A DNA stretch of 64,000 nt from Bacteroidales bacterium (lineage in GTDB: Bacteria; Bacteroidota; Bacteroidia; Bacteroidales; JAADGE01). A program made the position numbers and the translations under genes. The notes beneath the pieces were generated by a model, which had not been told where the DNA came from, ran no database searches, and worked only from the letters and a program-made list of their open reading frames with translations. Positions 16,670 to 33,978 of the stretch are shown piece after piece. The stretch is taken from positions 1 to 64,000 of the forward strand of contig JAKISF010000009.1 of the NCBI GenBank assembly GCA_021648725.1, in the 5' to 3' direction. Position 1 is the stretch's first letter; each line of letters begins with the position of its first letter.

Positions 16670-16673
16670 TGTT

Positions 16674-16883
16674 ATGCTGGGAGAAAAACTAAAATATCTG
16701 AACGAACATGATTGGATAACAATTTGGCCGACGATATCCGTTATACTTTTTACAATTATTTTTTTATATATAGTTTATACAGCTATTAAATTTAAAAAGA
16801 AAGATGTTGCAAAATGGGAATCAATGCCTTTAGATGAAAACCAAGATACTCAAGACAATTTAATTAACAAAACTTCATTTTAA
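16674..16883 (+). CDS. ccoQ: CcoQ-like small cbb3 subunit
   Basis: A 69-residue protein with one membrane helix (about residues 20-40, after DWITIWPTI) and a charged tail containing KKKDVAKWESMPLDE. Position between ccoNO and ccoP, four bases after the ccoNO stop, and size identify it as CcoQ, which stabilises the oxidase. Sequence conservation in this family is weak, so context carries the call. Confidence 0.8.
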   Translation: MLGEKLKYLNEHDWITIWPTISVILFTIIFLYIVYTAIKFKKKDVAKWESMPLDENQDTQDNLINKTSF

Positions 16884-16898
16884 CTTAAAAAAAATAAA

Positions 16899-17519
16899 AT
16901 GGAAAATAAAAATACAGACACTCAAAAAGTTAAAAACGAAAACAACGAAATATCTGATAAAGAATTAATGATAGACCATGACTACGACGGCATTAAAGAA
17001 CTTGACAATCCGCCGCCGCCGTGGTTAATGTGGCTTTTCTACATTACGGTTATATGGGGAGTAGGATATGTTGCATATTTTCATTGGTTTTCAGTAGGCG
17101 ATTTACAAGAAGCCGAATATGAAAGAATAATGAGCGAAGCTGCCGATAAATATAAAGATGTTGCAACGGATACGGAAACCATAAATATATTAACAACAGA
17201 AGCCGATTTAACAAAAGGAGCTGAAATTTACACAAAATCTTGTTCAGCATGTCACGGTGCAGAAGGAAAAGGAGGAATCGGCCCTGACTTTACTGACAAT
17301 AAATGGATATACGGAAATAATATAAAAGATGTTTTCGGAGTAATTAAAAACGGAACAGATAAAGGTATGCCTCCGTTTAAAAGCCTTGAAGATGACGGGA
17401 TTCTGCAAGTTGCAAGTTATGTTCTTACAAAATTCGGAACAGTTTCTTTAAACGAAGAAGTTAATAGTGAAATTGATTCAACAGAAATAACAGAAGAAAA
17501 AACTACTGATGAGAGTTAA
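16899..17519 (+). CDS. ccoP: cbb3 oxidase subunit CcoP, mono-haem form
   Basis: A 206-residue membrane-anchored cytochrome c. The N-terminal CcoP domain has DHDYDGIKELDNPPPPWLMW followed by one helix (residues 41-64). One class I cytochrome c domain follows with CSACH (Cys115, Cys118, His119) and a probable axial Met157 in KGMPPF. Textbook CcoP has two haem c groups and about 300 residues; this one lacks the second domain, which may be replaced by the extra domain on ccoNO. It passes electrons to CcoO. A terminator follows at 17541-17572. Confidence 0.93.
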   Translation: MENKNTDTQKVKNENNEISDKELMIDHDYDGIKELDNPPPPWLMWLFYITVIWGVGYVAYFHWFSVGDLQEAEYERIMSEAADKYKDVATDTETINILTTEADLTKGAEIYTKSCSACHGAEGKGGIGPDFTDNKWIYGNNIKDVFGVIKNGTDKGMPPFKSLEDDGILQVASYVLTKFGTVSLNEEVNSEIDSTEITEEKTTDES

Positions 17520-17540
17520 TAAAATATACAAAAGCTTAAG

Positions 17541-17572
17541 AAACTACAACTTTAAAAGGTTGTGGTTTTTTT
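17541..17572 (+). terminator. Terminator after ccoP
   Basis: AAACTACAAC (17541-17550) pairs with GTTGTGGTTT (17559-17568), with one G-U, and a T-run follows. It divides the structural oxidase genes from the ccoG assembly unit, which has its own promoter just downstream. Confidence 0.8.
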
Positions 17573-17590
17573 AATAAACAACAAAAGCAA

Positions 17591-17604
17591 TTGATATTTA
17601 TCAA
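17591..17604 (+). promoter_or_regulatory. FNR-type operator upstream of ccoG
   Basis: TTGAT-ATTT-ATCAA is a perfect match to the FNR consensus TTGATnnnnATCAA. Its centre is about 40 bases before the start point predicted from the -7 box at 17624-17631, the classic spacing for class II activation. A second imperfect copy, TTGATTGACCAA, follows at 17609-17620. No FNR/CRP family gene is in the window. Confidence 0.7.
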
Positions 17605-17623
17605 ACTATTGATTGACCAAAAT

Positions 17624-17631
17624 TACCTTTC
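17624..17631 (+). promoter_or_regulatory. -7 box for the ccoG unit
   Basis: TACCTTTC (followed by G) differs from TAnnTTTG in the last position. It ends 10 bases before the ccoG ATG, which predicts a leader of only a few bases. The weak box fits a promoter that needs an activator. Confidence 0.45.
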
Positions 17632-17641
17632 GTAAAATGCC

Positions 17642-19051
17642 ATGAAACTTGACAGTAAGCATGAAATAACATACAGAGATTCAATATCAACTGTTGATGA
17701 AGCAGGTAAAAGAATATGGGTACACGCAAAAAAGCCCAAAGGAAAGTTGTATAATTACAGGCAATTTTTCGGTTACTTTCTTGTAGCATTTCTTTTTGTA
17801 GTTCCGCTTATTAAAGTAAACAAAGCCCCTCTTATGCTGTTCAATGTTATTGAGCGAAAATTTATAATATTCGGTATTATCTTCTGGCCGCAAGATTCAT
17901 TCTTATTTTACTTAATGATGCTGTCTTTTATTCTGTTTATTATTTTGTTTACGGTAGTTTACGGCAGGCTTTGGTGCGGTTGGGCATGTCCTCAAACAAT
18001 ATTTTTAGAACTAATTTTCAGAAAAATTGAATGGTTAATTGACGGCAATCCTTCAAAGCAACGAAAATTAAAAGCCCAAAAGTTAAATTTCAGAAAATTT
18101 ATAAAACGATTTACTAAACATTTGCTGTTTTGGTTAATTTCATTTTTTATAGTTACCGCATTACTTTCTTTTATCTTAAGTGTTAATACGGTTACAGAAT
18201 TTTTGAAACACCCCTTTCCCGAACATACTTCCGGCTTTATCGCATTAATTATTTTTACCTCTGCTTTTTATTTTATTTACTCGTGGTTCAGAGAGCAGGT
18301 ATGTACAATTATGTGTCCCTACGGAAGGTTGCAGGGAGTATTATTAGATTCAAACTCAATAATAGTTTCTTACGATTATTTAAGAGGCGAACCCCGAGGA
18401 ATCGTAAAAAAAGGAAATGACGAAGCTACGGCAAAATCAGGAGATTGTATTGATTGCAAACAATGTGTACAGGTATGCCCTACAAATATAGATATACGAA
18501 ACGGCACTCAATTAGAATGTGTAAATTGCACAGCTTGTATAGATGCTTGTAATTCTACAATGAAAAAAATCGAAAAACCTAAAGGCTTAATAAGATTTGC
18601 TTCCGAAAACGGTATTAAAACAGGACAAAAATTTAAAATGACTCCTAGAAATATCGGGTATTCAATCGTTCTTTCCGGTATTCTTATCTTTTTCTTTACT
18701 TTGCTGTTAACAAGATCCGATATTGAAACTAATATTCTCAGAGACAGAAACTTTATGTACCAAGAACAAGAAACAGGTGTTCTAAGCAATATTTATAATA
18801 TAAGAATTTTAAACAAAACACATAAAACAATGAATTTAACAATAAAGTTAAGTTCAAATGAAGGAGAAATTAAACTGTTCGGAGATGATTTACATATAGA
18901 AAGTGGTGAAAAAGCAGAACCAAAAATGATTGTTTATATCTCAAAAAATAAGTTGAAACGCAAAAACACAAAACTTAAATTTCAAATTTATTCAGGAAAT
19001 AAACTATTAGACGAAGTTGAAACAAATTTTGTGGGACCGGATATTTATTAA
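17642..19051 (+). CDS. ccoG: cbb3 oxidase accessory ferredoxin CcoG
   Basis: A 469-residue membrane iron-sulfur protein (RdxA/FixG family). Helices lie near residues 40-60, 80-105 and 155-180, and WCGWACPQT and IMCPYGRLQG are present. Two 4Fe-4S sites follow: CIDCKQCVQVCP and CVNCTACIDAC (about residues 270-305). A last helix near 340-360 leads to a periplasmic Ig-like tail. CcoG is a cupric reductase that helps supply copper to the CcoN subunit. It starts the assembly unit with ccoH and the TauE-like gene, behind an FNR-type box. Confidence 0.95.
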   Translation: MKLDSKHEITYRDSISTVDEAGKRIWVHAKKPKGKLYNYRQFFGYFLVAFLFVVPLIKVNKAPLMLFNVIERKFIIFGIIFWPQDSFLFYLMMLSFILFIILFTVVYGRLWCGWACPQTIFLELIFRKIEWLIDGNPSKQRKLKAQKLNFRKFIKRFTKHLLFWLISFFIVTALLSFILSVNTVTEFLKHPFPEHTSGFIALIIFTSAFYFIYSWFREQVCTIMCPYGRLQGVLLDSNSIIVSYDYLRGEPRGIVKKGNDEATAKSGDCIDCKQCVQVCPTNIDIRNGTQLECVNCTACIDACNSTMKKIEKPKGLIRFASENGIKTGQKFKMTPRNIGYSIVLSGILIFFFTLLLTRSDIETNILRDRNFMYQEQETGVLSNIYNIRILNKTHKTMNLTIKLSSNEGEIKLFGDDLHIESGEKAEPKMIVYISKNKLKRKNTKLKFQIYSGNKLLDEVETNFVGPDIY

Positions 19052-19101
19052 CTGTAAAATGCCGTAATTAAGAAACTGAATCTTTTAACTAATACATAAT
19101 C

Positions 19102-19548
19102 ATGAAAATAAAGATTAATTGGGGAACCGGAATATTTATTACAATATTTATTTTTGTAAGTTTTTTTATAAGTTTTATCTTTTTCAGCCTTACACAAAAT
19201 GTAAACCTTGTAACTGATGACTATTTTCCTGACGAAATAGCCTATGAAAGTAAGTTAGATAAAATCAGAAACACAAATATTTTAACCGAAAAAATAACAT
19301 TAAAAAAAGAAAACAATAAATTAATAATTCTTTTTCCGGAAATAATCAATAACAAAAAAATATCGGGTAAAATTCTGCTTTATTACATTACCGATAATAA
19401 TTATGATATAGAATTAAACATTGAACCCGACAAAACAAGAAAGCAAATTATATATACTAAAAAAATTAAAAAAGGAAGATATTATATTAAAATAGATTGG
19501 AATCTTTCAGGAAAAAAATATTTTCAAGAATTTAAAATTACAATTTAA
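19102..19548 (+). CDS. ccoH: CcoH/FixH family protein
   Basis: A 148-residue protein with one N-terminal membrane helix (about residues 8-30, rich in Phe and Ile), then DDYFPDEIAYESKLD, typical of FixH, and a beta-rich periplasmic domain ending in WNLSGKKYFQEFKITI. FixH proteins assist cbb3 assembly or stability. The stop overlaps the start of the next gene by one base, so translation is coupled. Confidence 0.88.
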   Translation: MKIKINWGTGIFITIFIFVSFFISFIFFSLTQNVNLVTDDYFPDEIAYESKLDKIRNTNILTEKITLKKENNKLIILFPEIINNKKISGKILLYYITDNNYDIELNIEPDKTRKQIIYTKKIKKGRYYIKIDWNLSGKKYFQEFKITI

Positions 19549-20282
19549 TGGACTTTCAAATTATCGGGTCTGCATTTTTCTTTGGTTTAGTTACCGGAAT
19601 TCATTGCATGGGTATGTGCGGGCCTATTGCAATTTCATTACCTCTTAAAGAAACAAGTAACTTTTCAAGAATTTCAAGTTCTGTATTATACAACACAGGA
19701 CGTTCCGTAACATACGCCGTTATGGGAATGATTTTCGGTTTTCTCGGTCAAAGCTTTGTAATGGCAGGTTTTCAAAAATGGGTAAGTATTGTTATGGGAA
19801 CAATAATGATTTTATATGTCATTTTTCCTCTCTTTTTTAAAACCAAATTATCCGTTGAAAATTTCGAATATCAATATACGGGAGCACTAAGAAATAAACT
19901 GTCAAAACTGTTAGGCAAACGTTCATACTCAAGCCTTTTTATTATAGGCATATTGAACGGGTTATTACCTTGCGGGCCTGTTTATGCCGCACTTGCCGGA
20001 GCTATTGCAACAGGAAGCGTAATTTACGGAACAGTTTTCATGTTTCTTTTTGGGCTGGGAACAATACCTGTTATGTTAACTCTTTCGTTAATCGGAAATA
20101 AAATCAGCAATAAATTAAGGACAAAACTTGCAAAACTAATTCCTGCTACAATTATTATCCTCGGCATATTGTTTATTTTAAGAGGATTAGGATTAGGAAT
20201 AATGTTTGTAAGCCCTCCGGATAAAAAACTGAAAGTTCCTGTCGAACAAAAATCAGAAGGAAATCATTCTCATTGTATGTAA
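19548..20282 (+). CDS. TauE/SafE (DsbD/UreH-like) membrane protein of the cbb3 locus
   Basis: A 244-residue polytopic membrane protein. Two related halves begin GIHCMGMCGPIAISLP (about residues 18-33) and GLLPCGPVYAALAGA (about 136-150), the paired Cys-containing motifs of the DsbD_2/TauE-like group. The C-terminus is His-rich (NHSHC). Its place right after ccoG and ccoH is, as I recall, common in Bacteroidota and suggests a metal-handling or maturation role for the oxidase; transport has not been shown. No ccoI copper ATPase is found in the window. Confidence 0.82.
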   Translation: MDFQIIGSAFFFGLVTGIHCMGMCGPIAISLPLKETSNFSRISSSVLYNTGRSVTYAVMGMIFGFLGQSFVMAGFQKWVSIVMGTIMILYVIFPLFFKTKLSVENFEYQYTGALRNKLSKLLGKRSYSSLFIIGILNGLLPCGPVYAALAGAIATGSVIYGTVFMFLFGLGTIPVMLTLSLIGNKISNKLRTKLAKLIPATIIILGILFILRGLGLGIMFVSPPDKKLKVPVEQKSEGNHSHCM

Positions 20283-20311
20283 AAAAATTATTAATTATAA
20301 AATATTTAAAA

Positions 20312-20319
20312 TATATTTG
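20312..20319 (+). promoter_or_regulatory. -7 box for the cytochrome c lipoprotein
   Basis: TATATTTG matches TAnnTTTG, 38 bases before the ATG at 20358. It indicates separate transcription from the ccoG unit. Confidence 0.5.
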
Positions 20320-20357
20320 TATCCTTAAATTTTCTAAACAATTTAATTAAAAATATA

Positions 20358-20789
20358 ATGAAAATGAAAAAATTAACATTATCAACCTTAGCAGTATTAT
20401 TTATATTCAGCCTTTCAAGTGTATTACTTTCATGCGGGGATGATGAAGAAAAAACAACAGATGAAACAACAACAGAAGTCACTGAAGTAACTACAGAAGA
20501 AATTACTGAAGTAAAGTCTGATTACTCGGCAGGCGAAAAAATATACACAACAACTTGTCAAGCATGTCATCAAGCAAACGGAGAAGGTGTAGAAGGTTCA
20601 TTCCCGGGTTTAAAAGGTAAAGCTGTTGATTTAAGTGCAATAACTAACGGCAGAGAAGGAACCGCTATGATTGCCTATAAAAATCAATTATCAGACCAAG
20701 AAATAGCAGATGTTGCAAATTTCGTAAATCATTCATTTGGGAATAATTTTGATGAAGTAACAGTCGAAGATATTGCTGCTGTTAAGTAA
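20358..20789 (+). CDS. Cytochrome c lipoprotein
   Basis: A 143-residue lipoprotein. The lipobox LLSC puts the lipidated cysteine at residue 26, followed by an acidic Thr/Glu-rich linker (about 28-53) and one class I cytochrome c domain: CQACH (Cys67, Cys70, His71), and a Met near 105 in GTAMIAYKNQLSD as likely axial ligand. It is probably the mobile or tethered donor to the cbb3 oxidase encoded upstream (inference from position). A terminator follows at 20819-20847. Confidence 0.9.
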   Translation: MKMKKLTLSTLAVLFIFSLSSVLLSCGDDEEKTTDETTTEVTEVTTEEITEVKSDYSAGEKIYTTTCQACHQANGEGVEGSFPGLKGKAVDLSAITNGREGTAMIAYKNQLSDQEIADVANFVNHSFGNNFDEVTVEDIAAVK

Positions 20790-22463: not shown

Positions 22464-22471
22464 AAATGTAT
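22464..22471 (-). promoter_or_regulatory. -7 box for ribH
   Basis: On the minus strand TACATTTG matches TAnnTTTG. It overlaps the first ATG of the divergent AraC-type gene, so the two genes may compete for polymerase. Confidence 0.4.
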
Positions 22472-23059
22472 AATAAAAATAATACAGTAACTAAAAAGAT
22501 TAACATCAAAAATATGTTGAGCATTTGTTGTGTCAGAATGTTAAGGCATGATTTTGAAAATCATAATATTACAGTCAACAATATTGGGGTAGGTTTTGCC
22601 GAAATATCATATAACCCTGAAAAAATCAGCAATAAAGAAATTAACCGAATACTTGCTGTGTCCGGCTTAAGCATTATTTCAAATCGAGAAGAAAAGGTTG
22701 TAGAGGAAATAAAATTAGCCGTAACAGAATTAGTTCATTATATGAATAATGCAGATTCAATAGCAAAAAAATCAGAATATATTGTAGGAAAATTAGGCTT
22801 AAACTACCGTTATTTATCAAGATTATTCTCTAAATATGAAAATATTACTTTAGAAAAATATATTATACTCAATAAAATTGAACGTATTAAAAACTTAATT
22901 GACGAAGACGAATACACATTAAGCGAAATTGCATATATGATGGACTACAGCAGTGTTCAATATTTATCTGCACAATTCAAAAAAGAAACAGGATATTCCG
23001 TTTCTGATTATAAATTACTTGAATACAAAGAGAAAAAATCAATAAACGAACTCTTTTAA
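22466..23059 (+). CDS. AraC-type regulator with an HMA-like N-terminal domain
   Basis: A 197-residue protein from the ATG at 22466, chosen because the family begins with a short basic lead into I-x-I-K-N-M; a longer frame would run into ribH. Residues about 12-75 follow the fold order of a heavy-metal-associated domain, but the metal motif MxCxxC reads MLSICC, so the first cysteine is a serine. Residues about 100-190 form an AraC double helix-turn-helix (ITLEKYIILNKIERIKNLI, then LSEIAYMMDYSSVQYLSAQFKKETG). It is divergent from ribH and just ahead of the PqqD/ATP-grasp locus, so it may regulate either. An alternative start is Met17 at 22514. Confidence 0.78.
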   Translation: MYNKNNTVTKKINIKNMLSICCVRMLRHDFENHNITVNNIGVGFAEISYNPEKISNKEINRILAVSGLSIISNREEKVVEEIKLAVTELVHYMNNADSIAKKSEYIVGKLGLNYRYLSRLFSKYENITLEKYIILNKIERIKNLIDEDEYTLSEIAYMMDYSSVQYLSAQFKKETGYSVSDYKLLEYKEKKSINELF

Positions 23060-23116
23060 TTCAAATTTTATACATATTCCGTAAAATTTTGTAACATGTT
23101 TTTTAAACTTTAGATA

Positions 23117-23124
23117 TACTTTTG
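23117..23124 (+). promoter_or_regulatory. -7 box for the PqqD/ATP-grasp locus
   Basis: TACTTTTG matches TAnnTTTG. The nearest upstream TTTG (23088-23091) is 25 bases away, rather far for a -33 element. It predicts a leader of about 170 bases before the PqqD-like start. Confidence 0.45.
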
Positions 23125-23160
23125 TGTCGTAGATTTAATTAATACCATAAGTTATTTTTA

Positions 23161-23223
23161 ATGATGAATACAATAATATTATCAAATAACCTTTTTAATT
23201 CAATTTTAAAGAAATCAACCTAA
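23161..23223 (+). CDS. 20-codon ORF in the leader (possible leader peptide)
   Basis: ATGATG opens a 20-residue frame, MMNTIILSNNLFNSILKKST, ending at TAA 23221-23223. It lies 37 bases after the -7 box and 18 bases before a pair of alternative hairpins. It may be a leader peptide, a tiny precursor peptide for the modifying enzymes downstream, or chance. No core-like repeat, Cys pair or Gly-Gly cleavage site is present. Confidence 0.25.
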   Translation: MMNTIILSNNLFNSILKKST

Positions 23224-23241
23224 TAACCTTAAAGATGTTAA

Positions 23242-23290
23242 GCACTTTGATGTTTCGGAATTTCATCATTTGTGCCGAACACCTTTTTTT
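23242..23290 (+). promoter_or_regulatory. Possible attenuator: two mutually exclusive hairpins
   Basis: Hairpin A pairs GCAC (23242-23245) with GTGC (23272-23275) and GATG (23249-23252) with CATC (23264-23267). Hairpin B pairs TGTT(T)CGG (23251-23258) with CCGAACA (23275-23281) and is followed by CC and seven T. The arms overlap, so only one can form. B looks like a terminator and A like its antiterminator. The stems are short, so this rests on arrangement more than stability. Confidence 0.35.
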
Positions 23291-23303
23291 AATATAAACA
23301 AAT

Positions 23304-23552
23304 ATGAAAATAAGAAATAACATTGCCGTAAGCGAATCCGGCTTTCTATTCGACTCTAATACAGGCGATTCCTATTCTTTAAACGAAACAGGAAAACAAA
23401 TTGTAAAGATGTTAAATGAAAATAAATCGGAAGAAGAAATACGAAAATACTTCCTTGAAAATTACGATATTGAAGAAGGAACCTTTGAAAATAATTTTTA
23501 TGACTTCATAAATATGTTAAGCAAACTTAACTTACTTGAAAATGAGCAATAA
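23304..23552 (+). CDS. PqqD-like small protein
   Basis: An 82-residue protein with the PqqD / RRE-like winged-helix pattern: a short beta hairpin (IAVSESGFLFDSNTGDSYSLNETG), then helices (GKQIVKMLNENKSEEEIRKYFLENY, and a final NFYDFINMLSKLNLL). In PqqD-family proteins this fold binds leader peptides for modifying enzymes or delivers substrates to them. Its end overlaps the ATP-grasp gene by 11 bases, so the two are coupled. No obvious precursor peptide gene is present, so the substrate is unknown. Confidence 0.7.
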   Translation: MKIRNNIAVSESGFLFDSNTGDSYSLNETGKQIVKMLNENKSEEEIRKYFLENYDIEEGTFENNFYDFINMLSKLNLLENEQ

Positions 23553-24594
23553 AAAGAAGAAATATACAATTGCTGTTACGGGGCTTAATAATACTGACAA
23601 TCCGGGTCCGGGAGTTCCTGTTATAAGAGCATTGAGAGAAGCAAAAGATTTTGAGGTTCGTATTATCGGTTTAGTATATGAAAATTTAGAACCCGGAATT
23701 TACATGCAAAATATTGCCGACAAAATATACCAAATCCCCTACCCCTCAACAGGCTCAGACAGCCTTCTTGACAGAATAAAATACATACATTCAAAAGAAA
23801 ATTTACAAGTTCTTATACCTAATTTCGATGCCGAACTTTTTACATTTATGAAGTCAGAAGAAAAATTAAAATCAATGGGAATAGCAACCTTTTTGCCTAC
23901 TATTGAACAATTTGAAGAACGGCATAAATCAGAACTTCCCGAGTTCGGAAAAAAATACGACTTAGATATTCCGGAAAGCAAAGCAATTACAAGTTTAGCC
24001 GAAGTAAATAATTTACATCTCGAATTTGATTATCCGCTTCTTGTTAAAGGAAAGTTCTATGACGCTTATCTTGCATATAATGCATCACAAGTTATTGAAC
24101 ATTTCAATAAAATTTCATCGAAATGGGGACTTCCGATAATAATTCAGCAATTTATAAGAGGAACAGAAGTTAATGTTGTTGCTCTCGGCGACGGAAAAGG
24201 AAATACAATAGGTGCAGTGCCGATGCGTAAGCAATATATTACCGACAAAGGAAAAGCTTGGGGCGGAATTACGCTTACAGATAAAAATCTGTTAGATATC
24301 ACACACGATTTAATCAAAAAAACAAAATGGAGAGGCGGAATGGAGTTGGAAATAATAAAAACCAACGACAATAAATATTATATAATTGAAATTAATCCCA
24401 GAATTCCGGCTTGGGTTTATCTTGCAGTCGGTGCCGGCCAAAATTTACCTGAGGCTTTAGTAAAATTAGCTCTCGGAGAAAATGTTATACCTTTTAAAAA
24501 TTATGAAGCAGGTAAAATGTTTATTCGATATTCCTACGACATAATCGGAGATATATCACAATTTGAAAAACTTTCAATAACCGGAGAACTTTAA
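23542..24594 (+). CDS. ATP-grasp ligase of unknown substrate
   Basis: A 350-residue enzyme from the ATG at 23542 (a TTG two codons earlier is less likely). The N-terminal Rossmann-like part reads IAVTGLNNTDNPGPGVPVIRAL; the ATP-grasp core has YPLLVKG, PIIIQQFIRGTEVNVVALGDG and the metal-binding GGMELEIIK and YIIEINPRIPAW blocks. It resembles carbamoyl-phosphate-synthase and PylC-type ligases, which join a carboxylate to an amine through an acyl phosphate. It lies between the PqqD-like gene (11-base overlap) and a decarboxylase, suggesting action on a small peptide or amino acid. The product cannot be read from sequence. Confidence 0.82.
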   Translation: MSNKKKKYTIAVTGLNNTDNPGPGVPVIRALREAKDFEVRIIGLVYENLEPGIYMQNIADKIYQIPYPSTGSDSLLDRIKYIHSKENLQVLIPNFDAELFTFMKSEEKLKSMGIATFLPTIEQFEERHKSELPEFGKKYDLDIPESKAITSLAEVNNLHLEFDYPLLVKGKFYDAYLAYNASQVIEHFNKISSKWGLPIIIQQFIRGTEVNVVALGDGKGNTIGAVPMRKQYITDKGKAWGGITLTDKNLLDITHDLIKKTKWRGGMELEIIKTNDNKYYIIEINPRIPAWVYLAVGAGQNLPEALVKLALGENVIPFKNYEAGKMFIRYSYDIIGDISQFEKLSITGEL

Positions 24595-24623
24595 ACCTCT
24601 AAACTTTTTAATAAAACAAAAAA

Positions 24624-25979
24624 ATGACTACAAACGAAAAACTAAAATACGAAAGACCGGTAATAAATAAAATAAATGCCGGAGTAACAGATAAATTCGG
24701 AATGACATCTAAAATACCTGTCATTAGCGATATTGACAATGTAAAAGTTACAGACTTATTAAAAAACTACGGGTCGCCGGTTTTTGCCGTTTCCGAAAAA
24801 ACAATCAGAGAAACATATAACGAAGTTAAACAGGCATTTACAACAAGATACCCGAAAGTTCAATTTGCTTGGTCATACAAAACGAATTATTTAAATGCAA
24901 TATGTCAAATATATCACAGCGAAGGCTCTTGGGCAGAAGTTGTTTCAGGTTTTGAATATGATAAAGCAATTGCAAACGGTGTTTCGCCAAAAAAAATAAT
25001 CTTTAACGGACCCGATAAAAGTAAACTTGATTTAGAAAAAGCAATAAGCAACGGTTCATACATTCATATTGACCATTTTGATGAATTATATGATATTATT
25101 TCAATTTCAAAAACATCGAAAGAAAGACCGAAAGTTGCAATCAGGGTAAATATGGATACCGGAATTTATCCTCAATGGGATCGTTTCGGGTTTAACTATG
25201 AAAACGGAGAAGCCTGGAATGCACTTAACAGAATAATGCTTGCCAAAACTCTTGATTTAGTAGGTTTGCATACTCATATCGGAACATATATTATAACTCC
25301 GAATGCTTATGCTGTTGCTGCTTCAAAATTATCCGGTTTAGCTGTAAGATTAGACAAAAAGTTTAATCATAACATAAAATATATTGATATGGGAGGCGGT
25401 TTTGCATCTAAAAACACTTTAAAAGGTGCATACCTGCCCGGAAAAGATACTTGCCCTACTTTTGACCAATATGCCGAAGCAATTACAAATGCAATTATAA
25501 ATTCGGAAATTGACCCGAAGAAAATGCCCACATTATTTTTAGAAACCGGAAGAGCATTAATTGACGATGCAGGCTACATTGCAGGCACAGTTCTGGCAAA
25601 TAAACGCCTTGCAGACGGAAGACGTTCAATGATTATAGATACCGGAGTAAATATGCTTTTTACATCTTTTTGGTATGAACATGAAATATATCCGGCACAA
25701 GAAGTCGGCACACATACCGAAGACACTACTATTTACGGTCCTTTATGTATGAATATTGACATCATAAGAAGTTCTGTAAACTTTCCTTTACTGAACAAAG
25801 GAGATAATTATGTTCTGAAACGTGTAGGAGCATACAATATGACACAATGGATGCAGTTTATAACATTAAGACCGAATATTGTTTTAATTGATACCGAAGG
25901 AAAAACCCACGTAATTCGCAAAAGTGAAACAAACGAAACAATAACATCTTTAGAAAAAGTTCCCGAACATTTGAAATAA
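24624..25979 (+). CDS. PLP-dependent decarboxylase, diaminopimelate-decarboxylase-like
   Basis: A 451-residue fold type III PLP enzyme. PLP Lys86 lies in FAWSYKTN, the His-containing HTHIGTYI and glycine-rich DMGGGF bind the cofactor, ETGRALIDDAGYIAG corresponds to the EPGR block, and a cysteine at about 375 in GPLCMNID matches the GPxC motif of DAP decarboxylases, with Met-Asn replacing the usual Glu-Ser. It is longer than LysA (about 415) and has a 45-residue N-terminal lead. The changed active-site block and neighbours suggest a dedicated substrate rather than housekeeping lysine synthesis (inference). The ATP-grasp gene ends 29 bp upstream. Confidence 0.8.
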   Translation: MTTNEKLKYERPVINKINAGVTDKFGMTSKIPVISDIDNVKVTDLLKNYGSPVFAVSEKTIRETYNEVKQAFTTRYPKVQFAWSYKTNYLNAICQIYHSEGSWAEVVSGFEYDKAIANGVSPKKIIFNGPDKSKLDLEKAISNGSYIHIDHFDELYDIISISKTSKERPKVAIRVNMDTGIYPQWDRFGFNYENGEAWNALNRIMLAKTLDLVGLHTHIGTYIITPNAYAVAASKLSGLAVRLDKKFNHNIKYIDMGGGFASKNTLKGAYLPGKDTCPTFDQYAEAITNAIINSEIDPKKMPTLFLETGRALIDDAGYIAGTVLANKRLADGRRSMIIDTGVNMLFTSFWYEHEIYPAQEVGTHTEDTTIYGPLCMNIDIIRSSVNFPLLNKGDNYVLKRVGAYNMTQWMQFITLRPNIVLIDTEGKTHVIRKSETNETITSLEKVPEHLK

Positions 25980-26000
25980 ATATTTCATTTAAAACACTTA

Positions 26001-28187
26001 ATGAACCATACTTTTAACATAAAAGATTTTACGCATACAATTTTAAACAGTTATTCTCAGATTTTTTTTTCTGAGAATAAACTTTTTGCAGCTTTATTGA
26101 TACCTGTAAGTTTTTTAGATATTTGGGCAGGAGCATCCGGTTTGCTTGCAGTTCTTACAGCCAACATCACGGCTTATATCATGGGCTACAATAAGTTATC
26201 AATAAAAAAAGGCGTATATGGTTTTAATGCTTTACTTGTCGGTTTAGGAGCAGGTTTAAGTTTTTCTCCCGGAATTGAACTTTTTATTGTTGTATTTTTT
26301 GCATCAATCTTAACACTTTTCATTACTTTGGCTCTGCAAGGAATTCTGGCAAAATATACATTGCCCTTTCTGAGCATCCCTTTTTTACTCGGTATTTGGG
26401 CAGTAATTTTATCAACCAAAGATTTTTCGGCTCTCGGACTAAGCGAAAGAGGAATATACACTTATAATGAATTATACTCAATAGGCGGTAAAAATTTTAC
26501 CGATTTTTATGATTGGTTTTCAAGTTTAAACCTGCCTGAAAGTTTAAGAATATATTTCCTTTCGTTAGGAGCAATATTTTTTCAAAATAATATTCTTGCC
26601 GGAATTTTAATTTCTCTCGGGCTTTTGTATTATTCCAGAATTGTATTTTCACTTTCTTTAATCGGTTTCTTTGCAGCATTTTTATTTTACAAGTTCATAG
26701 GTGCCGATTTCTCGGAATTAGGATATACATTTATCGGTTTTAATTATATACTTACATCAATTGCAATCGGAAGTTATTTTGTATTAGCATCTTGGAGGTC
26801 TTATTTATGGACAGTCTTACTATTGCCCGTAACAGTAATAATTACTGCCGGTTTAGCAAAAGTTTTTGCTGTTTGGACACTGTCTATTTATTCTTTGCCT
26901 TTTAATATTATCGTAATAATGTTTATTTATGTTCTGAAATTAAGAACCGGAAAAAGGCAATATCTTACCGATAATTTTATAAAACAATCTAATCCCGAAA
27001 AAACAATATATCTGAATAGAACTGCAATTGAAGAAAACAAAAGCAAACTTTTTTATCCCGTAAATCTGCCGTTTTGGGGAGAATGGTCTGTAATGCAAGC
27101 ACATAACGGCGAATATACCCATAAAGACGAGTGGCAACATGCCTGGGATTTTGTTATTATTGATAAAAACGGAAAACAATTTAAAAATAACGGCAATAAT
27201 GTAGAAGATTATCTTTGTTACGGCAAATCTGTTTTAGCTCCTGCCGACGGAATAATATCCGATATTTTTGACGGAATAGAAGACAATAAGATAGGAGAAA
27301 TAAATACCGTTAAAAACTGGGGAAACTCAATTGTAATAAAACATACAGAATTACTTTATACACAAATAAGCCATATTAAAAAAGGTTCTTTCAAGATACA
27401 AAAAGGAGATTTTGTAAAAAAAGGAGATGTGCTGGCAGTTGTCGGAAATTCGGGGCATTCACCCTATCCTCACTTACATTTTCAAATACAGGCAACTCCT
27501 TATGTCGGCTCTGAAACTTTAGATTATCCGCTTCATAACTATATTACAGAAAAAGAAGAAAAACAAGAACTAATTACTTTCGGAAAACCGAAATTGAATC
27601 AAAAAATATCAACTGCCGAACAAAATGAAATAATATTTAATTCATTAAATTTTAAACCCGGGCAAAAAGTTAAAGCCGAAATTGAAATTAATAACAATAA
27701 AAAAGAGTTTATATGGGAAATTCATAAAACATCTTATAATGAAACTTACTTTTATTGTAAAGAAACAAAGTCAACGGCATTTTATTTTTCTGATGACACA
27801 GGCTTTTATTTTAAAAACTTTTACGGTAAAAAGAACTCGGCATTATTTACATTCTTTAAATCTGTGTATTCGGTAAAAAAAACATTTTACAAAAACATTA
27901 AACATACATCATGTATCAGAGCAGATTTATTTTTCAAAAAACATACATTGTTTGTTCAAGATTTCATTGCTCCGTTTTATCTATATTTAAAAACAAGATT
28001 TGAACTGAAATATATTGAAAAAGATGATGATTTATCTCCTGAATTTGTAAAATTGCAGTCAACTGTTGAAAAATCTCTATTCGGAAAAATAAATAAAACT
28101 GTTCAATCCGATATTTTAATTAAAGATACAGGAGAAATAATCATTAACATAAAAGAAAAATCGACAAAACTAACTGTTAAACCTTAA
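26001..28187 (+). CDS. Urea-transporter domain fused to an M23 peptidase domain
   Basis: A 728-residue membrane protein. Residues about 1-310 form ten or so helices in the urea-transporter pattern: repeated LLAVLTANITAYIMGY-like and GFNALLVGLGAGLSF blocks, then GFNYILTSIAIGSYF in the second half. Residues about 350-510 form an M23/LytM metallopeptidase domain with HAWDF, VLAPADGIISDIFDG, GNSIVIKH, KGDVLAVVGNSGHS and the zinc motif HLHFQI. A further 200 residues of beta-rich sequence follow. The first zinc motif is H-x-x-D rather than H-x3-D, so catalysis is not certain. It may move a small amide product and bind or cut peptidoglycan outside the membrane. Confidence 0.82.
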   Translation: MNHTFNIKDFTHTILNSYSQIFFSENKLFAALLIPVSFLDIWAGASGLLAVLTANITAYIMGYNKLSIKKGVYGFNALLVGLGAGLSFSPGIELFIVVFFASILTLFITLALQGILAKYTLPFLSIPFLLGIWAVILSTKDFSALGLSERGIYTYNELYSIGGKNFTDFYDWFSSLNLPESLRIYFLSLGAIFFQNNILAGILISLGLLYYSRIVFSLSLIGFFAAFLFYKFIGADFSELGYTFIGFNYILTSIAIGSYFVLASWRSYLWTVLLLPVTVIITAGLAKVFAVWTLSIYSLPFNIIVIMFIYVLKLRTGKRQYLTDNFIKQSNPEKTIYLNRTAIEENKSKLFYPVNLPFWGEWSVMQAHNGEYTHKDEWQHAWDFVIIDKNGKQFKNNGNNVEDYLCYGKSVLAPADGIISDIFDGIEDNKIGEINTVKNWGNSIVIKHTELLYTQISHIKKGSFKIQKGDFVKKGDVLAVVGNSGHSPYPHLHFQIQATPYVGSETLDYPLHNYITEKEEKQELITFGKPKLNQKISTAEQNEIIFNSLNFKPGQKVKAEIEINNNKKEFIWEIHKTSYNETYFYCKETKSTAFYFSDDTGFYFKNFYGKKNSALFTFFKSVYSVKKTFYKNIKHTSCIRADLFFKKHTLFVQDFIAPFYLYLKTRFELKYIEKDDDLSPEFVKLQSTVEKSLFGKINKTVQSDILIKDTGEIIINIKEKSTKLTVKP

Positions 28188-28189
28188 AA

Positions 28190-29512
28190 ATGAAACTGAA
28201 TAACTTTTATATAATTCTTTTATTAATCTTCTTTTCTTCCTACGGAACAGCACAGGAAATTATAAATTATCCTGAAACTGATAAAAAAACCTATAACCAA
28301 TATCTGAATAAAGATTGGGCAGGATTAATTAAAACCGGTAAAAAATCATTAAAATATGATATTGATTTTTACTATTTACAAGTAAGAATGGGAATTGCAT
28401 ATTATGAACTTAAAAAATACCCGAAAGCTGTTAAATATTTTGAAAATGCCTATAAGCAAAACAAAACAGATGAATTAATACAAGAATACCTATACTTTTC
28501 ATACATCTTTACCGGAAGATATGAAGATGCTCGAGTTCTGGGAGGAACATTTAAAAGAGAACTGAAGAAAAAACTGAGCATTTCGGCAGAACATCCGTTT
28601 ATAAGTGCATTATATCTTGACACAAAGCATGATATAAACGAAGATTATAAGTATATTCCTGATTTAACGGAAAGTTTGAGTCAAAAAGTAATAACTGATC
28701 AATCTTACTACAATGTAAGTTTAGAACACCTTATAGGAGATAAAATTACAGTTTTTCACGGCTACAGCAATATCGGAATTACAAATATTATTTATGATAA
28801 TAACATTAGTCTTCCTCCTGTGTATGAAGAAAAGATTCGTCAAAATGAATATTATGTTTCAATAAAAGCTCAAATAGCAAAAGGGCTGAATTTAAGCGGA
28901 GGTTTGCATTATCTGAATACAAATTATTTTGCTCCGAACCCTCTTTCTAGCGGAAGAATGAGAGGTTATTTACCGCTTTATAATTATTCTGGGAATTCTT
29001 TTGCAGCTGCAATAAATATATCTAAACACTTTTCTTTATTAAGAATTGCAGCAGGAACTTCATTTGCGAATATGAACAATAAAATTCAAATACAACCCGA
29101 ATTATCAATTAAAGTATATCCGTTTGGAAATTCAAAAATATATACCGAAAGTAAAGTTATACATTTAATTGAAAATGATTGGTTAACTATAACTCACAAC
29201 CCAGTATATAAACAAAGTTTAGGAATTAATTTCTTAAAATATTCTTGGTTTATTCCTTCGTTTACATACGGAAATATGAAAAACTTTACCGAATATAATG
29301 CTTTTATTGCAAATAATGATGTTGATTTAACAAAACAAAAATATGAGGCTTTATTAAACATCGGTTTTAAGAAAGGTACATTCAATATTTTATTTAAATA
29401 TCAATATAATATAAAAGAAAATGAATTTGAAGTTAATAATACAGAACAATTTAAAGAATATGTAAATCAATCAATTACCGTAGGAATTAAATGGTATTTT
29501 AAAAAATATTAA
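28190..29512 (+). CDS. Exported TPR protein with a C-terminal outer-membrane barrel
   Basis: A 440-residue protein with signal peptide (residues 1-21, ending YGTAQ). Residues about 30-125 hold two or three TPR-like helical pairs (YYLQVRMGIAYYELKKYPKAVKYFENAY). Residues about 165-440 alternate polar and aromatic beta strands and end in SITVGIKWYFKKY, typical of outer-membrane barrels (possibly YaiO-like). The ATG lies two bases after the fusion gene's stop, so the two are coupled; the barrel would be the outer-membrane part of this locus. Confidence 0.7.
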   Translation: MKLNNFYIILLLIFFSSYGTAQEIINYPETDKKTYNQYLNKDWAGLIKTGKKSLKYDIDFYYLQVRMGIAYYELKKYPKAVKYFENAYKQNKTDELIQEYLYFSYIFTGRYEDARVLGGTFKRELKKKLSISAEHPFISALYLDTKHDINEDYKYIPDLTESLSQKVITDQSYYNVSLEHLIGDKITVFHGYSNIGITNIIYDNNISLPPVYEEKIRQNEYYVSIKAQIAKGLNLSGGLHYLNTNYFAPNPLSSGRMRGYLPLYNYSGNSFAAAINISKHFSLLRIAAGTSFANMNNKIQIQPELSIKVYPFGNSKIYTESKVIHLIENDWLTITHNPVYKQSLGINFLKYSWFIPSFTYGNMKNFTEYNAFIANNDVDLTKQKYEALLNIGFKKGTFNILFKYQYNIKENEFEVNNTEQFKEYVNQSITVGIKWYFKKY

Positions 29513-29531
29513 CCTAATATAAATTAAAAAA

Positions 29532-30143
29532 ATGAAGAAACTAATCATTGTCACAAGTCTAATTTTCAGTTTTACAATCGCTGTTGCACAAAATTCAACA
29601 GAAGTAATAAATGCTTTTAAAAACAGTTATTCTCTTGAAAAAAATGGAGAATATAAAAAAGCAGTAAATGAATTAAAAAAAGTATATTCAAATGATTCTT
29701 ACGAGATTAATTTAAGAATCGGTTGGTTATCATATAATGCCGGTTTATTTGATGAATCAGCGGCACATTATCAAAAAGCTGTTAACCTTAAACCATATTC
29801 CGAAGAAGCAAAATTCGGATTAATTTACCCGAAAGCTGCACAAGGAAAATGGAGTGAAGTTATTAATTTATATAATAAAATTCTTGAAATAAACCCTAAA
29901 AACACAATTGCAAATTACAGATTGGGACTTATTTATTTCGGAAGCAAAAGTTACTCAAAATCAGCAAAATATTTTGAAAATGTTCTTAATCTTTACCCGT
30001 TTGATTACGATGCATTAATAATGCTTGCATGGACTGATTATTATCTCGGAAAAACCAAAGAAGCAAAAATTTTATTTACAAAAGTATTAATGAACACACC
30101 CGATGATAAATCAGCAAAAGAAGGTTTAAAATTGATTGAATAA
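29532..30143 (+). CDS. Exported TPR protein
   Basis: A 203-residue protein with signal peptide (residues 1-19, ending AVAQ). Four or five TPR units follow, with clear LGLIYFGSKSYSKSAKYFENVLNLYP and LAWTDYYLGKTKEAKILFTKVL pairs. It follows the barrel gene by 19 bp and ends the locus. It is probably a periplasmic scaffold for the barrel or the M23 domain. Confidence 0.75.
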   Translation: MKKLIIVTSLIFSFTIAVAQNSTEVINAFKNSYSLEKNGEYKKAVNELKKVYSNDSYEINLRIGWLSYNAGLFDESAAHYQKAVNLKPYSEEAKFGLIYPKAAQGKWSEVINLYNKILEINPKNTIANYRLGLIYFGSKSYSKSAKYFENVLNLYPFDYDALIMLAWTDYYLGKTKEAKILFTKVLMNTPDDKSAKEGLKLIE

Positions 30144-32337: not shown

Positions 32338-32946
32338 ATGAAAATCATGCGTGTTACTATATTTTTTTGTTCCGTATTGTTGATATTGACAGGAGGGTGT
32401 GCTTCATTCACTTCTTTTCAAACAGCAGATGTAATTCCCGAAGGAAAAACAGATATTACGATAAGCGGCAGTTTATTATATTCTCTACCGGAAACAGTTG
32501 GCGTATATGAGGAAGGCAACCAGTTTGTAACTCAATTAATGTTGCGAAAAGGCATTTCCGAAAATAATGAATTTCAAGCAGCAATATCTCCTAACTCAAT
32601 TAATGTAAACTACAAACACCTTTTCTATAAAGATAAAAAGTTTACTTCATCTTATACAACCGGATTAGCCTATTCTTTTCTGGCTTCAAGTTTTGATGAC
32701 CAAATACATATTGCCGATGTACCAATATCAATATACTGCACATATATGCCGAAACCGAATTTTGGTTTCACATTAAACCCTAAGGTTATGTATAGATTTA
32801 TTGGTGACGAATCAACAGTAATTTTCGGCAGTAGTTTTAGTTTAGTTATAGGAGATAAAATAAAGTTTTATCCCGAAGGAATAATATTTTACGATGCCAT
32901 AATCGGCAATTTATTTACGGGTGGCGGATTTGGCTTTTCATTTTAA
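32338..32946 (+). CDS. Lipoprotein with a small beta-barrel-like body
   Basis: A 202-residue protein with an export signal and a lipobox ending TGGC (Cys about residue 21). The rest is rich in alternating strands (TDITISGSLLYSLPE, EFQAAISPNSINVNYKHLFY, VMYRFIGDE) and ends GNLFTGGGFGFSF, with terminal Phe as in outer-membrane proteins. I do not recognise the family. The next lipoprotein gene begins nine bases after its stop, so they form a pair. Confidence 0.65.
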   Translation: MKIMRVTIFFCSVLLILTGGCASFTSFQTADVIPEGKTDITISGSLLYSLPETVGVYEEGNQFVTQLMLRKGISENNEFQAAISPNSINVNYKHLFYKDKKFTSSYTTGLAYSFLASSFDDQIHIADVPISIYCTYMPKPNFGFTLNPKVMYRFIGDESTVIFGSSFSLVIGDKIKFYPEGIIFYDAIIGNLFTGGGFGFSF

Positions 32947-32955
32947 TTTCAAATT

Positions 32956-33978
32956 ATGTGCAGTTATAAAAATGATACAATAAAGATTTTATTCAAGATG
33001 TTTATCTTGCTTGTCTTATCTATATCTGTCAGTTGCAGAAAAAATACAATTTCTGAAACAACACCCGACAGTTATCCGGAAATAACTTTATTCTCTCCCG
33101 AATCACCCCTTAATACTCCTATTCCTCCAAATCCTGAAGTTGACTCTAATTCAGACAAAATGCTTGAAAGTTTGATAAAAGATTATGAAGGCAAAGGCTT
33201 TTTTATTGCCCTTAAATCATTTTCCGAAACAGTATATTTCACAGGTCCTTCCACACCCCGTTATGATGTTGTATTAACAGCATCATGGGCTCCTAAACGC
33301 AAACTTCTAAACGTTCCTATACCTGATTATGCCGTTGTAGATCCGTCTGTTGATGCCGAAATGGTAATAATTGATACTGTCAACGGCTGCGAATATGACT
33401 TTTGGCAAATCAGAAAAATTCACGGAAGATGGTATGCATCATGGGGAAACTCATTGCCGATTGACGGAACGGGCATTTTTGAAAAAGGAATGTCTGCCCG
33501 AGGTTCTGGCTTTGCCCTGACAGCAGGAATTATGTGGCCTCATGAATTCAAAAACAAATCAATTAATCATGCTCTGATATTTACATTTGATTATACTAAA
33601 AGCGGCGGACCTGTTTTTCCTGCAACTGAAAGTGACGGCACATCCGGTTCAGAAACGGCAATACCCGAAGGAGCTTTGATTCAATTAAATCCAGACTTGG
33701 ATTTAAGCACGTTGGGACTTACCGATTATGAATACACAATTGCTGTTGCACTACAAAAATACGGTATGTATTTAGGAGATGACGGAGGCGGTTTAGAACT
33801 TGAGGCTGTAAATCCTCTTTCTTTTTCAAAGAATCTATACAAAGGATTCTTGCCCGATGTAGAATATGTTCCCCTCTCAAATATTCCTGTTAACGAATTC
33901 AGAATATTGAAACTTCCGCCTCAGGACTCAATATCCGAACCGCAAATTACAGAAAACAGTTGTGCTAAATTTCAGTAA
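32956..33978 (+). CDS. Lipoprotein of an uncharacterised secreted family
   Basis: A 340-residue protein with signal and lipobox (SVSC, Cys27). A Pro-rich stretch (FSPESPLNTPIPPNPEVDSNS) precedes a domain with VVDPSVDAEMVIIDTVNGCEYDFW, RGSGFALTAGIMWPHE, NHALIFTFDYT, and LQKYGMYLGDDGGGLE. I recall similar blocks (a conserved opening, a drug-like HALRF block, then KRYGM followed by D-x-G) in large secreted proteins of actinomycetes and other soil bacteria, without a firm name or activity. It may be a carbohydrate-related or adhesion domain. It pairs with the lipoprotein gene upstream. Confidence 0.6.
   Translation: MCSYKNDTIKILFKMFILLVLSISVSCRKNTISETTPDSYPEITLFSPESPLNTPIPPNPEVDSNSDKMLESLIKDYEGKGFFIALKSFSETVYFTGPSTPRYDVVLTASWAPKRKLLNVPIPDYAVVDPSVDAEMVIIDTVNGCEYDFWQIRKIHGRWYASWGNSLPIDGTGIFEKGMSARGSGFALTAGIMWPHEFKNKSINHALIFTFDYTKSGGPVFPATESDGTSGSETAIPEGALIQLNPDLDLSTLGLTDYEYTIAVALQKYGMYLGDDGGGLELEAVNPLSFSKNLYKGFLPDVEYVPLSNIPVNEFRILKLPPQDSISEPQITENSCAKFQ

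Follow-up and report, generated by a model that had tools for sequence, protein, structure and literature searches.

The six co-oriented genes at positions 23304-30143 (+ strand) of a 64,000-nt stretch of the Bacteroidales bacterium contig JAKISF010000009.1 (the whole of which is referred to below as the window) raise the question of what a PqqD-like protein binds when it is encoded beside an ATP-grasp ligase, an alanine-racemase (AR)-fold decarboxylase (DEC), a fusion of a urea-transporter channel with an M23 peptidase (UT-M23), a probable outer-membrane barrel carrying tetratricopeptide repeats (TPR), and a further TPR protein. Our comparisons lead to an answer that is well supported in silico: the protein belongs to the recognition elements of pathways for ribosomally synthesized and post-translationally modified peptides (RiPP recognition elements, RREs), and what it grips is very probably the N-terminal tail of DEC, an enzyme encoded in the same operon.

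The six open reading frames (ORFs) lie on one strand with successive junctions of -11, 29, 21, 2 and 19 bp, in agreement with an earlier note, made from the letters of the window, which had described six genes in one orientation with small gaps or overlaps. The operon is a real, widespread system in Bacteroidota. In the 84 loci where the ATP-grasp gene has 1 kb or more of sequence upstream and 6.5 kb or more downstream, its neighbours include the PqqD-like gene in 84, DEC in 83, UT-M23 in 81, the TPR gene in 77 and the TPR-barrel gene (by BLAST) in 60, and the PqqD-like, ATP-grasp, DEC, UT-M23 and TPR genes are found all together in 77 of the 84 (78 with a slightly different ORF cut-off; 71/77 after dereplication at 95% identity), the incomplete loci being L090, L091, L105, L132, L146, L183 and L215. 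At 34 distant loci, where ATP-grasp identity is 41-66%, the gene map shows the PqqD-like, ATP-grasp, DEC and UT-M23 genes consecutively in all 34 and a TPR gene next in 30 (one genome enters this tally twice); UT-M23 is in two frames in two of these loci, and an extra gene separates PqqD from ATP-grasp in one. The earlier note had taken the genes for a candidate undescribed locus, had proposed such a neighbourhood comparison, and had named their occurrence mostly apart in other genomes as the finding that would speak against it; five of them occur together, and no description of an operon of this makeup was found in the open-access PMC literature.

Of 60 related genomes, 32 have the ATP-grasp gene (E <=1e-50) and 31 a full-length UT-M23 (E <=1e-180; both thresholds are our choice, and the M23 domain alone matches everywhere), with both present in 29, ATP-grasp alone in 3, UT-M23 alone in 2 and neither in 26 (Fisher 2.5e-11, relatedness being left uncorrected); of the three genomes with ATP-grasp alone, one has a UT fragment where a contig ends. 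Scanning GTDB species genomes brought up at least 554 relatives, the best 80 of which include cultured Ancylomarina, Marinifilum and Labilibaculum. Within the order, 154 of the 393 genomes sampled have the ATP-grasp gene (E 1e-60); it was also detected in 12/194 and 10/128 genomes of two further orders, and in 34 of 395 genomes of a phylum sample (E 1e-40), 28 of these 34 lying outside the class.

When its profile was compared with the PDB, the PqqD-like protein found its best solved relatives in the lasso RREs TbiB1 (2e-12) and TfuB1 (3.5e-8); its scores stay below the thresholds that NCBIfam sets for its named lasso PqqD families. Leaders of the form [Y/W]xxPx[L/V/I/F/A] are what the discrete RREs of lasso pathways bind (PMC12710340 and PMC13381572). 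In the complex of LppB with LppA, D70 forms a bond with the leader's Tyr, the kink at the Pro is fixed by N33, and F74 both packs against that Pro and lines the second pocket (PMC13381572). PqqD residues N27, N64 and F68 correspond to LppB N33, D70 and F74 by spacing, being 37 and 4 residues apart in both proteins, with Asn at position 27 in 252 of 255 loci and Phe at position 68 in 247. Profile alignments further show that TbiB1 and TfuB1 carry an Asp aligned with residue 64, and that TfuA carries a Tyr. Judged by its sequence and contact residues, the PqqD-like protein is predicted to be a discrete lasso-type RRE, and residue 64 is, by spacing and alignment, the counterpart of LppB D70, which bonds the leader Tyr.

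A candidate ligand precedes the decarboxylase fold of DEC, in the form of about 30 residues with the tail consensus [Y/F]ERPxIxK...NKFG. Tail residues 9-26 (YERPVINKINAGVTDKFG) have a mean column entropy of 1.21, versus 1.22 for the body of the enzyme and 2.0 and 2.5 for the flanks (46% of DEC's 18-residue windows are more conserved), and in the AlphaFold2 (AF2) model, which has a mean predicted local distance difference test score (pLDDT) of 86.7 and rests on a shallow alignment of 22 sequences, the score drops below 50 only at residues 9-27; a tail that is conserved and at the same time predicted to be flexible fits the expectation for a binding peptide. The motif aromatic-xx-P-x-aliphatic is present in 91 of 92 distinct complete DEC N-termini, the sole miss being N-masked. 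The 34 DEC entries from distant loci all have it as well: the pattern finds 32, and in the other two, whose start was placed upstream, it was spotted by eye further along; two of the entries belong to one genome. It is missing from the first 60 residues of 12/12 LysA/ADC-type controls from related genomes. Over 223 tails (28 of 251 were dropped from this count) the Pro and Lys24 are present in 223, Gly26 in 218 and Gly20 in 199, which led us to reject the invariance of Gly20 suggested by 22 sequences. Among 177,635 PDB sequences searched with the tail profile, the leader of TfuA (MEKKKYTAPQLAKV, entry 6jx3, where TfuB1 is the partner chain) ranked first, though not significantly (E 0.23).

The aromatic residue that opens the motif covaries with residue 64 of the RRE. 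Both could be read in 255 of 289 loci, representing 205 distinct ATP-grasp sequences and holding some genomes twice; of the 34 dropped loci, 28 had no gene call and 6 no tail by pattern, and five of these six show a YERPxI tail together with Asp at residue 64, the remaining one being masked. Tyr tails are paired with Asp (101), Asn (63) or His (4), so that Asp or Asn occupies residue 64 in 164 of the 168 Tyr-tail loci, and Phe tails with Tyr (60), Ser (22), Ala (4) or His (1); not a single Tyr tail coexists with Tyr, Ser or Ala at residue 64, nor a single Phe tail with Asp or Asn. First seen in 129 loci, the pattern recurred in later-fetched ones (96 of 107 readable, some genomes being in both sets), with residue 64 again on top (mutual information 0.91, next 0.27). 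For 168 dereplicated loci, the uncertainty coefficient with the tail aromatic is 0.98 for residue 64 and 0.47 for the next of 831 columns, the highest other values being 0.29 in the PqqD-like protein, 0.40 in 346 ATP-grasp columns and 0.47 in 404 columns of the DEC body. On a quick tree of ATP-grasp and the DEC body, the tail aromatic needs a minimum of 7 changes and residue 64 a minimum of 6; independent pairs on supported branches are concordant in 4/4 cases (p 0.125), and all branches together yield 6 pairs, four His rows being left out. On an earlier, smaller tree, with His scored as a change, there were 9 and 11 changes, and 3 pairs lay on supported branches (2.9/3 concordant on average); a further earlier tree had 4 such pairs. 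Taken alone, the tree test is weak; the persuasive point is the specificity with which one known contact residue stands out among 831 columns.

Precursor leaders are the normal ligands of discrete RREs (PMC7470986), and the operon might accordingly be read as a classical RiPP pathway whose precursor is encoded elsewhere or is so short that it escapes notice, with a mere leader mimic in the tail of DEC. This we regard as decidedly improbable: in 40 related genomes the tail profile gave 23 strong matches, all of them DEC-sized frames, with the next best at 16 bits (a divergent precursor would escape such a search); inspection by eye of window positions 22901-24700 revealed no ORF of at least 20 aa besides DEC that shows the motif; and the covariation is with DEC. 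The earlier note had seen no obvious precursor peptide, which these searches bear out, and had noted that a PqqD fold usually presents a peptide or carrier to an enzyme; a peptide ligand is retained, but most likely it is not an unseen separate peptide but the DEC tail, the ligand predicted from motif and covariation.

DEC itself has as its best PDB match the N-citrylornithine decarboxylase FigC/FslC (7kh2; 1e-55 by sequence, 1e-38 by fold). Its active-site block reads GPLCMNID, that of FigC/FslC GPSCMQHD, and GPxCES(S/T)D is found in 6 of 9 LysA-type controls from related genomes; GPxCM..D and VGAYN are common to DEC and FigC/FslC, and M. jannaschii LysA has CESSD and VGAYG. The altered GPxC block on which the earlier note had remarked is thus real, yet it is no oddity but FigC/FslC-like. 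DEC falls below the NCBIfam cut-offs for LysA (TIGR01048, 213 of 297.9 bits, without the CES specificity block) and for FslC (NF041039, 217.9 of 500 bits). The window genome (G000, 98% complete) has no LysA above the NCBIfam cut-off and DEC is its only match, unlike several of its relatives, which might be taken to mean that DEC is the organism's lysine-pathway LysA and its association with PqqD incidental. Such a role is very improbable indeed, as the block is not that of LysA and six relatives (G005, G009, G015, G022, G027 and G030) carry DEC in addition to a LysA above the cut-off.

The FigC clade, including BtrK, SbnH, AcsE and MccE, acts on conjugated or carried substrates, as stated in PMC7857480, and BtrK is named in the PDB list as 'L-glutamyl-[BtrI acyl-carrier protein] decarboxylase'. 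The ATP-grasp protein exceeds the Pfam cut-offs for ATPgrasp_Ter (39.3 bits, cut-off 29.1) and ATP-grasp_3 (32.6, cut-off 23.2), has the conserved start TGLNNTDNPGPGxPVIR and a mean column identity of 63% in a 22-sequence alignment, and its profile matches the carbamoyl phosphate synthetase (CPSase) large chain and 2pn1 in the PDB. From the FigC-like block and fold of DEC, and from a clade acting on conjugated substrates, we infer that ATP-grasp ligation likely comes first and decarboxylation of the conjugate second.

The likeness of DEC to FigC in block and fold also invites comparison with rhizoferrin-like metallophore pathways, in which case ATP-grasp would replace the NIS (non-ribosomal peptide synthetase-independent siderophore) synthetase, DEC would act as FigC/FslC does, and an AraC-type regulator would sense metal. 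A gene for such a regulator, which had not figured in the earlier note, is located 244 bp upstream of PqqD; its ORF is open from TTG 22358, and homologues start at ATG 22466. Of 108 loci with 1.5 kb or more of upstream sequence, 45 have this regulator gene no farther than 2.5 kb from PqqD. The N-terminus of the regulator we take to be HMA-like, the sole database sign being a sub-cut-off MerTP match (E 0.015). The motif NMxCxCC occurs in 19 of 46 aligned copies near the operon, so that its presence in most copies was rejected; the last CC is found in 35 of the 46, and in the window copy Ser replaces the first Cys. A ZIP transporter gene is adjacent to one locus (L184). A metallophore pathway is nevertheless quite unlikely: the six genes include neither an NIS synthetase nor a TonB receptor, 27 of the 46 regulator copies are without the full motif, the window's being among the lineages concerned, and control of the operon by the regulator is itself putative.

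The membrane side of the operon begins with UT-M23, which matches Pfam UT (210.5 bits, cut-off 25) and Peptidase_M23 (54.7, cut-off 28.7). In its AF2 model (mean pLDDT 87) residues 2-344 match UT structures with Z 36-38 and residues of about 351-528 match M23 with Z 12-15, so that the fusion, recognised beforehand from the translation, is upheld for both halves; the C-terminal region (about 540-728) was barely covered by the fold search. The UT part scores under the cut-off of the yut equivalog TIGR03441 (130.2 of 274.6 bits). In the M23 domain the putative catalytic residues listed in Table 1 are invariant in 25 diverse sequences, the first His being conserved only as H-x8-D, with none at the usual HxxxD, and the D, H and HxH being invariant. 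Charges hint at a cytoplasmic M23 domain, the loops being mixed. For the next gene product, a signal sequence and features read by eye point to a probable outer-membrane barrel; its TPR_2 match (E 9e-6) is just under the Pfam cut-off, significant PDB profile matches are confined to the TPR part, and no Pfam barrel model was matched.

Taken together, we consider it reasonably probable that the operon is a dedicated biosynthesis-and-transport system, in which the RRE docks the FigC-like DEC beside an ATP-grasp enzyme that would make a small conjugate, and UT-M23, barrel and TPR proteins would handle its passage. The [Y/F]xxPxI segment of the tail would occupy the cleft of the RRE in the manner of lasso and LPP leaders, its first residue in contact with residue 64, as the computational evidence supports; the RRE, by analogy with the role of discrete RREs in RiPP pathways, would hold DEC next to the ligase. 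From family and active-site block, ATP-grasp would join a carboxylate to an amino-acid amine, and DEC would remove the alpha-carboxylate of the conjugate. The inner-membrane UT-M23 may then trim or release the product and, jointly with the outer-membrane barrel and TPR proteins, pass it on.

Several observations weigh against this reading. The match between tail and TfuA, at E 0.23, is not significant and proves nothing by itself, and the conserved NKFG stretch extends beyond the leader motif, so that docking alone does not account for it. In the RRE, N27 is replaced by Ser in 3 of 255 loci and F68 by Leu or Tyr in 8 of 255. With only 4 supported independent pairs, phylogenetic inertia may play a part. 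A UT pore is expected to suit small neutral solutes, and Pfam detects no TonB receptor or NIS synthetase among the six genes. Finally, one locus (L105) has no DEC beside PqqD and ATP-grasp, and two others (L090, L132) keep PqqD, ATP-grasp and DEC with UT-M23, barrel and TPR not adjacent; the lack of adjacent UT-M23, barrel and TPR genes in L090, L132 and L105 suggests that the operon consists of two modules.

The residues outside the RRE motif bear on one more possibility, that the tail is a substrate and DEC an enzyme-borne precursor: the RRE would present the tail, ATP-grasp would add a residue, for example to Lys24, DEC would decarboxylate it, and M23 would release the product beside the UT channel. 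Conservation of Lys24 (223/223) and Gly26 (218/223) outside the motif would agree with this, as would the invariant M23 residues and the carried or conjugated substrates of the AR-fold relatives MccE, SbnH and AcsE (PMC7857480) and, from its PDB name, BtrK. However, each product would cost an enzyme chain if there is no cycling, a modified tail is hypothetical, and NKFG could instead touch ATP-grasp or the DEC body; we hold this scheme to be rather unlikely. Its most specific form, in which DEC would itself decarboxylate a residue ligated to the invariant Lys24 of its RRE-fed tail and M23 would set that residue free where the fused UT channel opens, is unlikely. If true, it would amount to peptide-tethered small-molecule synthesis in which the enzyme itself is the precursor, coupled to a peptidase-channel.

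Table 1. Coordinates of the operon, its parts and the upstream regulator in the window
Feature	Position	Strand	Basis or remark
AraC-type regulator, probable HMA-like N-terminal domain	22466..23059	+	Pfam HTH_18/HTH_AraC
PqqD-like discrete RRE, 82 aa	23304..23552	+	Pfam PqqD 42.3 bits (cut-off 23.4), 9e-11
Codon of PqqD residue 64 (Asn in the window), predicted contact of tail Tyr	23493..23495	+	covariation
ATP-grasp ligase, CPSase/PylC-like	23542..24594 (ATG; TTG 23536 also possible start)	+	Pfam
DEC, AR-fold pyridoxal phosphate (PLP) decarboxylase, FigC/FslC-like	24624..25979	+	Orn_Arg_deC_N 103.5 bits (cut-off 23.4)
DEC tail residues 9-26 YERPVINKINAGVTDKFG, RRE-leader-like putative docking peptide	24648..24701	+	conservation and AF2 confidence
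UT-M23: urea-transporter channel, M23 metallopeptidase domain and beta-rich C-terminal region	26001..28187	+	Pfam, AF2 fold
M23 domain, aa 351-528	27051..27584	+	putative zinc/catalytic set H374, D383, H458, H491, H493
TPR and probable outer-membrane beta-barrel	28190..29512	+	signal sequence, features by eye
TPR protein with signal sequence (by eye)	29532..30143	+	Pfam TPR_2 4e-22

Other genes accompany the operon in parts of its range. In another class, PqqD is preceded by a gene whose product combines FlgD-like and type-IX sorting domains (15 of 74 ATP-grasp clusters; four members were scanned), and small proteins with type-IX sorting domains occur beside the operon at L199:10274-11125, L203:5611-6447, L286:3185-3973 and L138:10735-11526. 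A DUF2202 (rubrerythrin-like) gene is located between regulator and PqqD in three loci (L062:3637-4239, L070:445-1047, L129:8854-9588). Also in another class, the TPR gene is followed in 15 of the 74 clusters by a separate gene coding for about 280 aa; among three proteins encoded there or in a comparable place, two have no Pfam match and one a sub-cut-off match to an OmpG-type porin. HGSNAT/acyltransferase-3-like membrane proteins are found between DEC and UT-M23 (L091:12540-13580, L149:2345-3385), and the family contributes 8 flanking ORFs from 5 of the 74 clusters; it was rejected as a core member. Genes seen between DEC and UT-M23 in single loci (AAA_21 ATPase, AAA_14/DUF4143, histidine kinases, a PKD protein, an aminotransferase) are mostly mutually unrelated and were dismissed as insertions, and apparent ATP-grasp-DEC fusions in two loci were discounted on account of runs of N in the record. 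A defence function was set aside, the only PADLOC match being a marginal one to LmuC (E 0.00099).

Elsewhere in the window, positions 14075-20789 hold a cbb3-type cytochrome oxidase cluster, named by eye from ORF starts (CcoNO-like, CcoP-like, CcoG-like, FixH-like, SafE-like and cytochrome c), and positions 32338-33978 encode two neighbouring exported-looking proteins with no Pfam match at E 0.1. A scan of the window against Rfam yielded no RNA family.

RREs are used in genome mining for peptide natural products, and lasso-type RRE matches without lasso machinery have been flagged as possible false positives (PMC7470986). The present operon suggests that some of these lasso-type RREs grip enzymes, which a short motif readable in the sequence could reveal; the tail residue and RRE residue 64 should then be swappable as a pair. 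In the order, as given above, the system with its unusual channel-peptidase fusion is present in 154 genomes out of 393 sampled.

Both the fold of the UT-B/dvUT channels and that of the LytM/Csd M23 peptidases are clearly present in UT-M23, which differs from them in having both in one chain, an extra beta-rich region and an unusual spacing of the first zinc ligand. FigC/FslC, the closest solved relative of DEC, has GPxCM..D and VGAYN in common with it, at 28-29% identity in the fold alignment, whereas the operon has ATP-grasp instead of an NIS synthetase and a leader-like tail on DEC. In butirosin biosynthesis (BtrI/BtrJ/BtrK), where BtrJ is the ATP-grasp enzyme, an ATP-grasp and an AR-fold decarboxylase likewise operate on a carried amino acid, but an acyl carrier protein is used in place of an RRE, and DEC is nearer to FigC than to BtrK. 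The pheganomycin pathway, too, includes an ATP-grasp enzyme. Graspetide and pheganomycin pathways (the latter in PMC7470986) combine ATP-grasp with RiPP-type recognition, as does the operon, in which, by contrast, the ATP-grasp protein is CPSase/PylC-like and no precursor was found; decarboxylase, M23 and urea go unmentioned in PMC8939145. Closest in recognition are the lasso B1/leader pairs (TfuB1-TfuA, TbiB1) and LppB-LppA, which have in common with the operon the RRE sequence, the YxxPxI leader-like motif and, by spacing, the positions of N33, D70 and F74. Unlike lasso/LppB-type operons, the six genes comprise, as judged by Pfam, no lasso cyclase, B2 peptidase or kinase, and the motif that in lasso and LppA systems is borne by a precursor peptide is here carried by a 450-aa enzyme.

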